Source: Funiculus sociatus GB2-C1
GTDB taxonomy: Bacteria > Cyanobacteriota > Cyanobacteriia > Cyanobacteriales > FACHB-T130
Direction: 5' to 3'
DNA length: 64,000 nt
Assembly (NCBI RefSeq): GCF_039962115.1
Contig: NZ_JAMPKJ010000009.1
Coordinates: 1 to 64,000, forward strand
Position numbers and translations under genes: made by a program. This document shows positions 41,154 to 46,602 of the stretch, piece after piece. Numbering within the stretch: the stretch's first letter is position 1; each line of letters begins with the position of its first letter. The notes beneath the pieces are model-generated. The model saw nothing but the letters and a program-made list of their open reading frames with translations, was not told the DNA's origin and did no database searches.

Positions 41154-41427
41154 ACTGTTGGTTTTTTGTTCGCTGCTTGCGTCAACCTATAGGTGTTTTT
41201 TGAAGGGGTCAATTTTTGCGGCTGAAACACTTATCCCGCTTGGATTTGAGCAAGATGACACCATTCCAGGGATTGGCCCAAACGCTGTAATTCATACTGT
41301 GCCTTGCTTTGAGGCGGTTTATGAAAATGCAATCTTGACATCCTGGTGCTTGAAACAGTACATTCACTTTAGGTTGACGTAAACGAACCTCGAAAACTCC
41401 ATATATCAATGTTTCCAGAACCCGGCG
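41154..41427 (+). other. Candidate CRISPR leader region
   Basis: 274 nt between the FTR1 gene and the first repeat. A 74-codon frame here has no recognisable features. By repeat polarity (ATTGAAAC at the 3' end) transcription should enter the array from this side, so the leader and promoter are expected here. The last 60 nt (AAACGAACCTCGAAAACTCC near 41381) are the best leader candidate. This is inference. Confidence 0.45.
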
Positions 41428-43242
41428 TCGGAAAACCTCTAAATCCCTATCAGGGCAAAGTTAGCGGGACTAGGGGAAGGCGATGGATTAGGAGAAGGTC
41501 GGAAAACCTCTAAATCCCTATCAGGGCAAAGTTAGTTTTTATTAAGATTTTCAAAAAGCCAATCATAGTCGGAAAACCTCTAAATCCCTATCAGGGCAAA
41601 GTTAGCTCCACCTTTGCGAATTTGAGCAAGGTCAGCTCGTCGGAAAACCTCTAAATCCCTATCAGGGCAAAGTTAGAAATAAAATTACAGAATCTTCTAT
41701 CGATAAAATATTCGGAAAACCTCTAAATCCCTATCAGGGCAAAGTTAGTCTGCCCCGGCAAAATCACCCCGTTTGCCGCATCGCCGCACTTGAGTCGGAA
41801 AACCTCTAAATCCCTATCAGGGCAAAGTTAGTTATCTAAGTTACGCTGAAATAATGCAAACTGATCGGAAAACCTCTAAATCCCTATCAGGGCAAAGTTA
41901 GCAGACATTAAGATCGTCAACGCCAACGACTTCAGTTCGGAAAACCTCTAAATCCCTATCAGGGCAAAGTTAGAGGAAAGTAATAGACAACTCTTGCCGG
42001 AAAACCTCTAAATCCCTATCAGGGATTGAAACATGGGAGCGCACATTTGACGCTCGATTCCCCAGAGCCGGAAAACCTCTAAATCCCTATCAGGGATTGA
42101 AACCCAACCCAGTAAAAAAACGGTTGGAGAAATTAGGTGCCGGAAAACCTCTAAATCCCTATCAGGGATTGAAACTCTCTTCAATCATCTAAATCCTCCA
42201 TTTCAAAAAAGCCGGAAAACCTCTAAATCCCTATCAGGGATTGAAACACCTAAATGACTTTATAGAGACAGCACCTTGAGCCGGAAAACCTCTAAATCCC
42301 TATCAGGGATTGAAACGTTGAATTTCGGGAGGTACTGATTCAAACCGCATCGGCGCCGGAAAACCTCTAAATCCCTATCAGGGATTGAAACTCCCAGACA
42401 AACACGCCGCTAACACCGGAAGCCGGAAAACCTCTAAATCCCTATCAGGGATTGAAACCGCGCCAAGGTTGGCAGCATTGTTAGCTATTTCGGCCGGAAA
42501 ACCTCTAAATCCCTATCAGGGATTGAAACGATTGAGCGCACATAAGCCCATAGCCGCGCCGCGTCGGAAAACCTCTAAATCCCTATCAGGGATTGAAACC
42601 TATAATGAGAAAAAACAACAATAGATAATGCCTTCGGAAAACCTCTAAATCCCTATCAGGGATTGAAACTATTAGCTTCAACATTATTCAAAGGAACCTG
42701 ACCAGTCGGAAAACCTCTAAATCCCTATCAGGGATTGAAACGCTTTAGTAACACCATATTGGGCAGCCAAATCTGGTCGGAAAACCTCTAAATCCCTATC
42801 AGGGATTGAAACACAGCGCTCCGGCGAGAAATACCCACCGCAACCTAAGCCGGAAAACCTCTAAATCCCTATCAGGGATTGAAACAAACCTAAGTTGCTC
42901 CGATGATGGAGCGACTCATGCCGGAAAACCTCTAAATCCCTATCAGGGATTGAAACGAGGTTAGGATATCTATTTTTCCTGCTAAAGTTACGCCGGAAAA
43001 CCTCTAAATCCCTATCAGGGATTGAAACATACCCGGATTGGGTGCTAGACGAAACGTTCTGGCCGGAAAACCTCTAAATCCCTATCAGGGATTGAAACCG
43101 CCTCATCTCGGAAGCGGCCGCCGAAATCTACGGCCGGAAAACCTCTAAATCCCTATCAGGGATTGAAACCTAAAAATCTTAGAGTATAGTAGAAAACCTT
43201 TATAAGCCGGAAAACCTCTAAATCCCTATCAGGGATTGAAAC
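41428..43242 (+). CRISPR. CRISPR array, 26 repeats, two repeat types
   Basis: 26 repeats and 25 spacers. All repeats share the core CGGAAAACCTCTAAATCCCT plus ATCAGGG, with a CCCT/AGGG hairpin. Repeats 1-8 (to 41973) end in CAAAGTTAG; repeats 9-26 end in ATTGAAAC, the usual 8-nt crRNA handle of type I/III systems. The base before CGG is T in repeats 1-8 and 17-20 and C in 9-16 and 21-26; in the C blocks the base before it is always G, giving a 37-nt repeat. Spacers are mostly 32-36 nt, with exceptions of 46 (41749-41794), 38, 30 and 22 nt (41974-41995, at the switch). No cas gene lies in the window. Confidence 0.98.
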
Positions 43243-43398
43243 CTCTATTCTCCGACCTCGCGATGGAAACGATAGGGATGCTCATCCGGTAGCGTGTAAA
43301 ATTAGCAATCGGAAATTTTAGGAATCAGTGCCAACATCTTCTCAAATTCCCAAATTGACGGTAAGTTGACATTGCGGGGGATGGGATGAGACTTTGGC

Positions 43399-44874
43399 AT
43401 GAATGCAAATCAAGATTTAATCAGAGCAGCTAAAAAGGGCGACATCAAACGGATACAAGCATTACTCCACCAAGGCGCTGATGTCAATACCACTGATAGA
43501 GAAGGCACCACTGCTTTAATGTTTGCCGCCCAAAACGGCAACACCGAAATCGTGCGTGTGTTGCTAGACAAAGGCGCTAATATCAACCTTGCCAGAAAAC
43601 AGTATGGTCTGACAACCTTGATGTTAGCAGCGGCAGCAAATCAGCTTGACGTGGTGCAAACTTTGGTGGCTAGAGGCGCTGACACGAACGCCAAAAACGA
43701 AGATGGGAGTACGGCGCTAATGGTAGCGGCGTTTAAAGGTCATGCTTCCGTGGTGCAAATTTTGCTGGATGCGGGTGCGGAAGTAAATGTAAAAGATAAA
43801 GTTGAGGATACCGCTTTAATCTTGGCTGTCCAAGAAGGTTATGCAGCAATTGTGCAAGCTTTGCTGGATGCTGGTGCTGAGGTGAATGCAAGTAGAAATG
43901 ATGGTGTCTCTCCCTTGTTCCTCGCTGCTGGCTTCGGTCACGCTGACACCGTAAGAATTTTATTAGAACGAGGGGCGGATGCGAATTGTAGCAGAAATGA
44001 CGGCAGAACTGCCTTAATGCAAGCTGCGGAATTTGGTCATAAAGATATCGCCCAGTTGTTGTTAGCGAATGGTGCTGATGTTAATGCACAAAACCAAGAC
44101 GGTGAGACAGCTTTAATCTTGGCAATAGATGAAGGTGACGTTGAAGTAGTGCAAGTAATGCTTTGTGCTGGTGCGGATGTGAATGCTAAAAATCCGGATG
44201 GTTCAACAGCGTTGATGGCTGCGGCGGCGGTTGGCGATACGGACATCGTATCAGCTTTACTCGAAAAAGGCGCTGAAATCAACGCTCAAGATATAGATGG
44301 TGAAACAGCTTTAAACTTTGCGGTTGTCGAAGGTTATGACGAAGTTGTGGAGATTTTACTCAATCGGGGGGCTGATGTCCAAACGCGAAATAAGTTAGGG
44401 GATACGGCTTTATTAGTGGCGGCGTTGCATGGGAGAAACGCGATCGCATCCTCATTATTGCAAAAAAAGGCTGATTTCAATGTCCGAAATTTTGGCGAAA
44501 CACCTTTAACGCTGGCAGCATTTCACGGACACAGCGAAACTGTCAAAGTGCTGCTGGATGCTGGTGCGAAGCCGAATACACGCGCCAGTGACGGGAAAAC
44601 GGTGCTAATGAAGGCAGCTATGGCAGGACATACGGGCGTAATGCAACAGCTGCTTTCCTTGGGTGCAGATATCAATCTTCAGGATGATGTCGGTGCGACT
44701 GCTTTGATGTGGGCAGTACAGCGTCATCATGTGGAAGCTGTCAAAGTCTTACTTGATGCTGGTGCAGATGTAAATTTAAAAAATCAAGGCGGCTACACAG
44801 CTTTGATGATGGCACAAATGAATCGATTTCGGGATATAGTGCGATCGCTTAAGGCAGCAGGCGCTGTGGATTGA
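43399..44874 (+). CDS. Ankyrin-repeat protein
   Basis: A 491-residue protein made almost wholly of about 14 ankyrin repeats of 33 residues, with the usual G-x-TALMxAA and VxxLLxxGAD-N signature in each (for example DGSTALMVAAFKGHASVVQ). There is no signal peptide or extra domain. Such proteins mediate protein-protein contacts in the cytoplasm; the partner is unknown. It starts 157 nt after the last CRISPR repeat, but nothing ties it to CRISPR function. Confidence 0.93.
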   Translation: MNANQDLIRAAKKGDIKRIQALLHQGADVNTTDREGTTALMFAAQNGNTEIVRVLLDKGANINLARKQYGLTTLMLAAAANQLDVVQTLVARGADTNAKNEDGSTALMVAAFKGHASVVQILLDAGAEVNVKDKVEDTALILAVQEGYAAIVQALLDAGAEVNASRNDGVSPLFLAAGFGHADTVRILLERGADANCSRNDGRTALMQAAEFGHKDIAQLLLANGADVNAQNQDGETALILAIDEGDVEVVQVMLCAGADVNAKNPDGSTALMAAAAVGDTDIVSALLEKGAEINAQDIDGETALNFAVVEGYDEVVEILLNRGADVQTRNKLGDTALLVAALHGRNAIASSLLQKKADFNVRNFGETPLTLAAFHGHSETVKVLLDAGAKPNTRASDGKTVLMKAAMAGHTGVMQQLLSLGADINLQDDVGATALMWAVQRHHVEAVKVLLDAGADVNLKNQGGYTALMMAQMNRFRDIVRSLKAAGAVD

Positions 44875-44969: not shown

Positions 44970-45878
44970 TTACTTGCGCTTCTTACCATAGCGCAGTAAT
45001 GCCAAACCACTCAGCACGATTGCACCCATTGTACTTGGCTCAGGTACTGGTTCCGGTGTTGGAGTCGGAGTTGGGGTTGGAGTCGGTGTTGGAGTTGGAG
45101 TTGGAGTTGGAGTTGGAGTTGGAGTTGGGGTTGGAGTTGGGGTTGGAGTTGGAGTTGGAGTTGGTGTTGGGGTTGGAGTTGGAGTCGGTGTTGGGGTTGG
45201 AGTTGGAGTCGGTGTTGGAGTTGGGGTTGGTGATGGAGTTCCCTGACCCGTTCCGCTGGCATCGTTAAAACCATTACCCTCAATACTTTGGAAGCGAACC
45301 CCGAAGTTACTTAAGGTAAAGCTATTAACGCTGCCGCTGAACGCCAGAATAGGAGAAAAAATACCAGAACTACCAGTAGTAACACCACCATTTGATCCGC
45401 CTTGGCAGGTATTACCATCGGTGAAACATACATCAATATCACCGAAGCCATTAGGAAATTGGCCGCTTCTGTCGTTATCAAAAATCCCAGATACGCGGGT
45501 GTTTCCAGAACCACTAGGATTTCCGACTCCCAGCAGTGGTAGGTCAACATCAAAACCCAAGGCAGAAGTTCTAGAAGTGATGCCACCACTTGATGTATTG
45601 CGTAGCAATATATCAAAAGCCGCCTCGGTAGTGTCTCCAACCGTTGTGAATCCTAGAAAGGTAAATACCGCTTCCGATGAGAGACCAGAAACATTATTTC
45701 CGTTTACGTTGCCACCGAAGAAAACGTTAAAAGATTGATTAATATCATTACTATTAATTGTAACGCTATCCCCGCTGAAGGTAAACGCTGAAGCCGGGAG
45801 AGCTACTGCTAAAGAATAAACTCCAACTACAGACAGTGCAGATATCAAATGTTTTTTGTGTAAGTTAAATATGGTCAT
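44970..45878 (-). CDS. PEP-CTERM exosortase-target protein with Thr-Pro tract
   Basis: A 302-residue exported protein. Signal peptide at residues 1-29 ([18 protein letters not shown]). The beta-rich domain ([17 protein letters not shown] onward) is typical of surface proteins. A low-complexity Thr-Pro tract of some 70 residues follows. The C-terminal sorting signal is [18 protein letters not shown] then RYGKKRK: the PEP-CTERM motif, TM and basic tail cut by exosortase. It is thus a likely surface or matrix protein. I chose ATG 45878 because AAGGAAAAGAG precedes it. Confidence 0.88.
45046..45237. repeat. Hexamer/dodecamer microsatellite in PEP-CTERM gene
   Basis: About 190 nt of GGAGTT / GGTGTT / GGGGTT hexamers that encode the Thr-Pro tract on the minus strand. 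The synonymous third-base variation shows the tract is kept in frame. Confidence 0.85.
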
Positions 45879-46602
45879 CTCTTTTCCTTTGTTTCCGTGC
45901 AATCTCTTACTTATGAAACTTTATCCCACTCAAATTAGTCTGTCTATACTTAATCGGTTATTTCATCGTATCTTTACGTAATTCTTTCGGATTAAAAATT
46001 TCCTATAAACTAATGGCTGTAAGTTTTTATAAGGTTTACTGTAAGTTCATGTGAATGTCTGTATTTATGAAATTTTCGTAAAATCAATACGTATTTTGAT
46101 GATTTGTTTATGAGAAAACATGGAAAGCCCTCGTAAAAACAACTTTTTTACGTAGATTTACGCATGATTTCATTAAGCCATGAAGAGCTAATGTAGTTTT
46201 TACTTAAAAAATATAGTCAAAAACTAGGAAAGTTCCGGCAAAGACCTTTTAGGCTAAGTGTATTTACATAAACTGTTAGCAGCTACAACAAAGGACAGTG
46301 AGCCAGAAGCAAGCTAAGCTAACCTTTGAGCCTCGCGGATGGTATCGAACCGCTAATGCACAAGCTATAGCAATCCTGGGCAGAGTTGTGATACAGCCTT
46401 TCAGATACCCGACTTCGTAAGAGAAGTCAGGTATCTCGCCTTCACGAATCATTTAAGAATGCTATAGATACCGGTAGAAAATAATTGGCAAGCTAAGATT
46501 TAATGAAAGTAACCTATAAAATTGGCAATCAGCTAAGCCTTGGGCGTTATCCAGGCTTTCTTCCGGTTGTCTGATTCACTATTTTTTTTCCAAGGCGGTT
46601 TT
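45879..46602. other. A/T-rich intergenic region
   Basis: 724 nt upstream of both the PEP-CTERM gene (minus) and the mannosyltransferase gene (plus), so it should hold both promoters. It contains dispersed repeat A copy 2 (46402-46472). I see no gene in it. Confidence 0.55.
46402..46472. repeat. Dispersed repeat family A, copy 2
   Basis: The reverse complement of 6907-6975 with few differences, including the GATACCCGACTTC / GAAGTCAGGTATC hairpin and the CTTCACGAATCATTTAAGAA block. Confidence 0.75.

Follow-up and report, generated by a model that had tools for sequence, protein, structure and literature searches.

The CRISPR array of the window, by which we mean the whole stretch of 64,000 nucleotides (64 kb) analysed here, carries an altered repeat end in its eight leader-proximal units, and this end was probably captured from a spacer. 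We propose that CAAAGTTAG, the new repeat end, was once the 5′ end of spacer 8 and would have been fixed in the place of the handle ATTGAAAC by mis-integration or deletion and then copied as part of a 37-bp unit.

The array comprised 26 repeats (41428–43242), a number that was reproduced when counting from the core alone. The constant core of 27 bases was present in the array in 26 exact copies, which rules out chance and establishes that the array is real. Counted from this core, without the handle in the search pattern, 8/26 repeats ended in CAAAGTTAG and 18/26 in ATTGAAAC. Repeats 1–8 read TCGGAAAACCTCTAAATCCCTATCAGGG followed by CAAAGTTAG (variant), and repeats 9–26 read YCGGAAAACCTCTAAATCCCTATCAGGG followed by ATTGAAAC (canonical). 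The type switched at a single point, between repeat 8 (41937–41973) and repeat 9 (41997–42032), with no mixed or intermediate units, and the eight copies of CAAAGTTAG were identical to one another. The recount (8 + 18, no mixed unit) agreed with the preliminary description of this DNA, in which two repeat types were separated by a complete change at one point. The same description gave the preceding 28-nt core as identical throughout; 27 bases were indeed constant, but the first base varied, being T in repeats 1–8, C in 9–16, T in 17–20 and C in 21–26. It also held that the types differed only at the handle, which did not stand, as a 5′ G was rarer before the variant repeats and the leader-repeat junction was shorter. 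The T, C, T, C blocks of the first base would correspond to three changes in the leader-proximal repeat, or to exchange with a T-type array such as that on contig C4.

The canonical repeats were 37 nt long including a 5′ G, which was present in 17 of the 18, and the canonical unit from this G through ATTGAAAC had the same length, 37 bases, as the variant unit from its T through the last G of CAAAGTTAG. The canonical repeat was predicted to form a hairpin with a 7-bp stem (centroid −7.8 kcal/mol), with a z-score against shuffles of only −1.8. The centroid of the variant repeat retained 4 pairs (−3.3 kcal/mol, z +0.33), the nine bases of CAAAGTTAG following the stem. Outside the array, the CAAAGTTAG nine-mer was found only three times in the 64-kb window, twice on the + strand and once on the − strand, and no local donor stood out. 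The features are listed in Table 1, in which G062 is a genome labelled as the same species.

Table 1. Features of the array and its flanks, in positions of the window.
Feature	Positions	Strand	Basis
Leader, extent taken as about 220 bp	41208..41427	+	Aligns with the leaders of G062:C65, the C4 I-D array, the C21 solo repeat and G062:C3
Promoter-like TTGACA-18-TACATT in the leader	41335..41364	+	10/12 matches
Leader-repeat junction CCCGGCG/T, shorter than in relatives	41421..41428	+	Shorter by one base vs C4, G062:C65 and G062:C3 and by two vs C21
Repeats 1–8, variant, 37 nt each, with spacers 1–7 (34, 33, 34, 35, 46, 33, 35 nt)	41428..41973	+	Repeat parsing
Spacer 5, unusually long, 46 nt	41749..41794	+	0/64 canonical-unit spacers reach 46 nt
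CAAAGTTAG in repeat 8, proposed to be the former first nine bases of spacer 8	41965..41973	+	Inferred from the 23-nt spacer after it and the constant 37-nt repeat length
Spacer 8, short junction spacer, 23 nt; last G may belong to repeat 9	41974..41996	+	0/64 canonical-unit spacers this short
Repeats 9–26, canonical, ATTGAAAC end, with spacers 9–25	41997..43242	+	Repeat parsing
Repeats 17–20, older block with first base T and canonical handle, with spacers 17–19	42564..42812	+	Repeat parsing
Putative trailer-end remnant, CTCTATTCTCCGACCTCGCGATGGAAAC, of a degenerate terminal repeat	43243..43270	+	Compared by eye with the degenerate last repeat of G062:C65

The polarity of the array was assessed from its two flanks. 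The G062:C65 array is syntenic with that of the window, its flank being 93% identical over 827 bases, and cyanobacterial type I-D leaders measure 202–220 bp in the excerpted text of PMC10212523. The scanned region held four promoter-like sites against 3.4 in shuffles, which is weak alone. Because the scan finds about as many sites as the shuffles do, the weight of the promoter-like element rests on the presence of the same TTGACA/TACATT pair, at the same spacing, in the G062:C65 and C4 leaders; the pair was absent from the C21 and G062:C3 leaders. Degenerate terminal repeats were also seen by eye at the right end of the G062:C65 and C4 arrays. The left flank aligned with four related leaders and the right flank retained a degenerate repeat remnant, and as judged from these alignments, the leader is on the left and repeats 1–8 are the youngest. 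The left leader had already been deduced from polarity in the preliminary description, and its position supports the suggestion made there that an altered first repeat was copied into all later acquisitions; transcription from the right, the opposite case, is not indicated by the sequence.

Variant repeats at the end of an array are often old and decaying, and this counts for reading repeats 1–8 as a decayed trailer end that is transcribed from the right. The leader on the left, the degenerate terminal repeats on the right both here and in G062:C65, and the eight identical copies of CAAAGTTAG, which are unlike decay, all speak against it, and this highly improbable reading was rejected on polarity.

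The 5′ edge of the repeats was altered as well. A G stood directly before 64/66 canonical repeats vs 4/7 variant repeats (Fisher p 0.005, the units not being independent), a count from which the leader-adjacent repeat of every array was left out.

The related arrays illustrate how a change at the leader end can be passed on. All repeats ended in ATTGAAAC in the C4 array (24/24), which is T-type at its first repeat base, and in the syntenic G062:C65 array (18/18), both counted from the core. The G062:C3 array (L065, − strand) displayed two repeat types, repeats 1–6 reading GAAGACTCC...ATTGAAAT and repeats 7–9 reading GAAAACTCC...ATTGAAAC; 579 bases separate the start of its repeat 8 from repeat 9. 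It resembles the window array in that a change in the first repeat was inherited by later units. The spread of leader-end changes is therefore ordinary, as G062:C3 demonstrates with two point changes, whereas in the window the whole handle was replaced and the junction spacer was shortened. Further members of the repeat family were observed elsewhere. On C21 (L009 near 9355; G000:C21:73355), a leader preceded just one repeat of the family, apparently an emptied or never-filled array, and the leader of the nine-repeat array on G062 contig C3 was similar to it. Isolated single CCCTATYAGGGATTGAAAT-like repeats occurred on G000:C53, C2, C35 and C40, away from any array seen, and two CCCTATYAGGGATTGAAAT-like copies lay beside the cas3′ gene (C4:61805–61898).

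Spacer lengths were compared between the variant and canonical units. Canonical units in four arrays contributed 64 spacers (17 from the window, 23 from C4, 17 from G062:C65 and 7 from G062:C3); parsed with a 36-base canonical repeat, these measured 31–42 nt, with a mean of 35.6 and an sd of 1.9. The last repeat of each array contributes no spacer, the spacer lengths exclude the 579-base gap that follows repeat 8 in G062:C3, and degenerate terminal repeats were excluded from every count. Published type I-D spacers are most often 35 nt long and vary by five to six (PMC10212523, in excerpt). Spacers 1–8 of the window measured 34, 33, 34, 35, 46, 33, 35 and 23 nt. The shortened spacer 8, overlooked in the preliminary description, sits exactly at the switch of repeat type. 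When the nine bases of CAAAGTTAG are added to it, the length becomes 23 + 9 = 32 nt, at the lower edge of the canonical range; only 1/64 canonical-unit spacers was 32 nt or shorter. The long spacer 5 was compared by eye with spacer 6, the neighbouring spacers and the leader DNA as possible sources of its extra length by duplication, and no similarity was seen.

An altered repeat end, an adjoining spacer shortened by about the same amount, and an unchanged repeat length were thus found together. CAAAGTTAG is read as the former start of spacer 8 because a 23-nt spacer lies at the switch and because 23 + 9 gives 32. In the model for type I-D integration, the non-PAM end of the incoming DNA joins the leader-repeat junction first, the PAM end joins the repeat-spacer border second, and host repair follows (PMC10212523, as excerpted). 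With spacer 8 as the newest spacer, the repeat on its leader side would have lost its last eight bases, ATTGAAAC, and the sequence beginning with CAAAGTTAG would then have abutted the stem-loop. This could have happened along two routes. The second strand transfer, that of the PAM end, may have hit the repeat about eight bases before the repeat-spacer border, or 10–12 bases may have been deleted soon after integration. Measuring a constant 37 bp from the leader cut, the integrase would then have copied CAAAGTTAG as the repeat end at each duplication, and at least seven acquisitions with the new end would have followed. If the first cut keeps its distance from the leader, the loss of one base at the leader-repeat junction would have shifted it by one, so that it falls after the G, and it is because of this move that 37 bp would reach nine, not eight, bases past the stem. 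The joint between spacer 8 and repeat 9, the product of the first step, was canonical (...CTCTT/GCCGG), and both edges of repeat 8 were altered. This combination would fit an error in the second step, an error in the gap repair of a single intermediate, or a small early deletion.

Several observations count against this proposal or restrict it. The full spacer of 32 nt would itself be short, which weakens pure mis-integration and favours a deletion that included a few spacer bases. The 46-nt spacer 5 shows that odd lengths arise in this stretch for another reason. The G was kept before 4/7 variant repeats, above the quarter expected for a free base, and the leader change calls for either an event of its own or a second trace left by the same repair error. 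No protospacer was found in which CAAAGTTAG is contiguous with spacer 8. The literature on other types adds two cautions. The position of the second cut in types I-E, I-B and II-A is fixed by an internal repeat motif that lies 8–10 bp upstream of it (PMC6895254, in excerpt); a ruler of this kind would give eight bases past the stem, not nine, which counts against the proposal. In type V-A, an altered sequence or length of the terminal repeat lowered full integration, according to the portion of PMC13034035 consulted, which counts against easy tolerance of a new repeat end.

A partial precedent is provided by type II-A in vivo, where deletions near the 3′ end of the repeat led to the first base of the neighbouring spacer being taken in while the length was kept (PMC6895254, in excerpt). 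An altered repeat 3′ end, a kept length and the uptake of spacer bases are shared with the window array (PMC6895254, with types I-E and I-B as cited there). In the II-A case, as far as that excerpt describes it, one or two bases had been engineered in the laboratory, and the ruler sat within the repeat. In contrast, the window array is natural, the change covers eight to nine bases and was kept through seven later units, and the lengths fit counting from the leader cut.

The occurrence of the variant repeat in other genomes was also surveyed. With at most two mismatches, the CAAAGTTAG repeat was found in 1/291 genomes of the order, the window's own, so that the search for this repeat type called for by the preliminary description returned no second genome among the 291. 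The window core, also with at most two mismatches, was found in 1/100 relatives, again the window's own; G062 lies outside that set, and its syntenic core differs from the window core at 3/27 bases. The stem sequence AAATCCCTATYAGGG followed by a non-A base occurred in 3/386 genomes of the phylum, being repeated only in the window's own and present in one copy each in the two others; the 386 are all genomes scanned, whether or not they carry the canonical repeat. Neither of the two single matches reads as an array, and the 3 kb examined around each contained no perfect CCCTATTAGGGATTGAAA, although one of them had a copy of CCCTATCAGGGATTGAAA about 60 bases before the match. A scan of genome contigs, from which the window's own genome was possibly absent, returned no member of this repeat family in which a base other than A follows the stem.

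These distributions bear on the recombination of two arrays, in which the left eight units and their leader would derive from an array with native CAAAGTTAG repeats. The abrupt and complete switch is what such a fusion would produce, and the T/C blocks of the first base could reflect exchange between T-type and C-type arrays, C4 being T-type. An array with native CAAAGTTAG repeats was, however, not among the genomes just described, where CAAAGTTAG repeats and repeated AAATCCCTATYAGGG with a non-A base both occurred solely in the window's own genome. The core with CCTCTAAATC is common to all 26 repeats and, with at most two mismatches, was present in none of the 99 other genomes (G062, with three differences, being outside the set), and the leader is the syntenic one. 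Exchange within a repeat should moreover have left a hybrid T...ATTGAAAC beside the variant block, whereas repeat 9 reads C...ATTGAAAC, and the joint falls in a spacer that was cut short. The fusion put forward as an alternative in the preliminary description is consequently quite unlikely, with no hybrid repeat and with an array-specific core and a native leader spanning both parts.

A somewhat less improbable alternative, to which we still attach only a small likelihood, is that the repeat end was changed independently, by conversion or templated replacement, while repeat 8 was the first repeat, the short spacer 8 then being coincidental or reflecting a loss of its own. In this clade, point changes of the repeat next to the leader are indeed passed on, as in G062:C3, and no protospacer backs the origin of CAAAGTTAG from a spacer. 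Against this, an independent change needs both a replacement of eight to nine bases and an unrelated shortening of exactly the junction spacer, to a length seen in 0/64 canonical-unit spacers.

Capture from spacer 8 and its alternatives differ in what the protospacer of spacer 8 should look like. If mis-integration occurred, GTN would stand directly before CAAAGTTAGAGGAAAG...; if a deletion occurred, a few extra spacer bases would lie between the PAM and CAAAGTTAG; and if the handle is unrelated to spacer 8, GTN would stand directly before AGGAAAG. Exact scans of viral contigs gave no match to any of 8 patterns taken from spacers 8, 7, 3 and 22 and one C4 spacer, those for spacer 8 consisting of exact 20- and 22-mers and two degenerate coding patterns. 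The exact 22-mer of spacer 8 was not found in genome contigs, and CAAAGTTAG plus spacer 8, with at most three mismatches, was found in 388 genomes of the order only in the array itself. A BLAST search of the whole array against phages and plasmids, judged by coordinates and E-value, gave no convincing spacer match among 20 of 50 phage records and 11 of 11 plasmid records; among the rows listed, those of highest coverage were cyanobacterial phages and plasmids, which were taken as repeat-to-repeat matches. BLAST with the 32-mer returned one weak match from each, an Enterococcus phage (bases 1–25, 88%, E 3), which spans handle and spacer and is at chance level, and an Agrobacterium plasmid (bases 16–32, E 9). 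The spacer search in phages and plasmids proposed in the preliminary description has thus yielded no convincing protospacer by whole-array BLAST or by exact scans of spacers 3, 7, 8 and 22.

The cas genes of the genome were examined to identify the system that may serve the array. PsaL and PsaF of photosystem I were encoded in the window and the cas models matched were of cyanobacterial type, which point to a cyanobacterium as the host. The sequence ATTGAAAC is taken here to be the type I-D crRNA handle, and such handles occur in type III too. The type III RAMP family PF03787 had 0 matches in the window's own genome, with 4/14 controls positive. The only cas1 match of the genome was located in a type I-D operon on contig C4, away from the window array on contig C9, and the sole PF10040 match, used to search for Cas6, lay in the same operon. 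Eight of the nine proteins submitted from this operon matched NCBIfam models (Cas3′, Cas10d, Csc2, Csc1, Cas6, Cas4, Cas1 and Cas2), the Cas3′ frame being cut by the end of the DNA stretch analysed; the ninth, of 202 aa, had no NCBIfam match. Beside the window array, 0/10 frames between 36094 and 51802 matched PADLOC cas models at E 0.001. The Cas1-Cas2-Cas4 proteins of this type I-D operon most likely serve the window array in trans.

In type I-D, the repeat-derived ends of the crRNA are 8 + 29 nt, adding up to 37, with an 8-nt 5′ handle (PMC10212523, in excerpt). Repeats 9–26 conform to this type, being about 37 nt long with a stem-loop and an 8-nt 3′ part, and repeats 1–8 depart from it in their nine bases after the stem and their 4-pair hairpin. 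Compared with the Synechocystis-type I-D array, as characterised in the excerpt of PMC10212523, the window array shares the 37-nt repeat, the stem-loop before the handle, spacers near 35 nt, a leader of about 200 bp and a cas4-cas1-cas2 I-D operon in the genome. It differs in lying away from the cas genes, in the nine-base non-canonical handle region of 8/26 repeats, and in the variant stem of 4 pairs instead of 7.

Two frames lie to the right of the array. That at 43399–44874, next to the array, encodes a 491-aa ankyrin-repeat protein that matched the PADLOC candidate-defence model PDC-M72A (E 2.8e-150), probably owing to ankyrin repeats in both. The frame at 44970–45902 carries, as seen by eye, an extended Pro-Thr repeat and then a PEP-like C-terminus, and had no Pfam match; the Pro-Thr repeat is much shorter in the syntenic G062 frame (310 vs 248 aa).

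The altered repeat end may influence the crRNAs made from it. Cas6 cutting of the variant repeats may be weaker, with the predicted hairpin reduced from seven to four pairs, and the variant handle would consist of nine bases of other sequence. If it is processed, the crRNAs of units 1–8 are expected to begin with CAAAGUUAG. The PAM of type I-D is GTN (PMC10212523, in excerpt); the variant repeat ends in TAG, not GTN, so self-avoidance that relies on the PAM should be unaffected. Adaptation remained functional after the change, as seen from the later acquisitions, which bear on adaptation only and not on interference. It would go considerably further to hold that the array rewrote its own crRNA handle with invader DNA, that this handle is still processed and used, and that the 3′ end of type I-D repeats is free to evolve by capture as adaptation reads only the distance from the leader; we regard this wider reading as doubtful.

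The open-licence literature searched yielded no description of a natural case in which a whole handle was replaced and the junction spacer lost a corresponding length. If capture from spacer 8 is true, the seven later units would indicate that the type I-D integrase can duplicate a repeat whose last eight bases no longer have the original sequence and whose stem is shorter. The integrase would count 37 bp from the leader cut, and the array would constitute a natural record of how repeats are measured. It would further reveal a route by which an abrupt change of repeat can be seeded by spacer sequence. The need for the canonical handle in interference would also become directly testable within this one array, in which units 9–25 provide an internal control.
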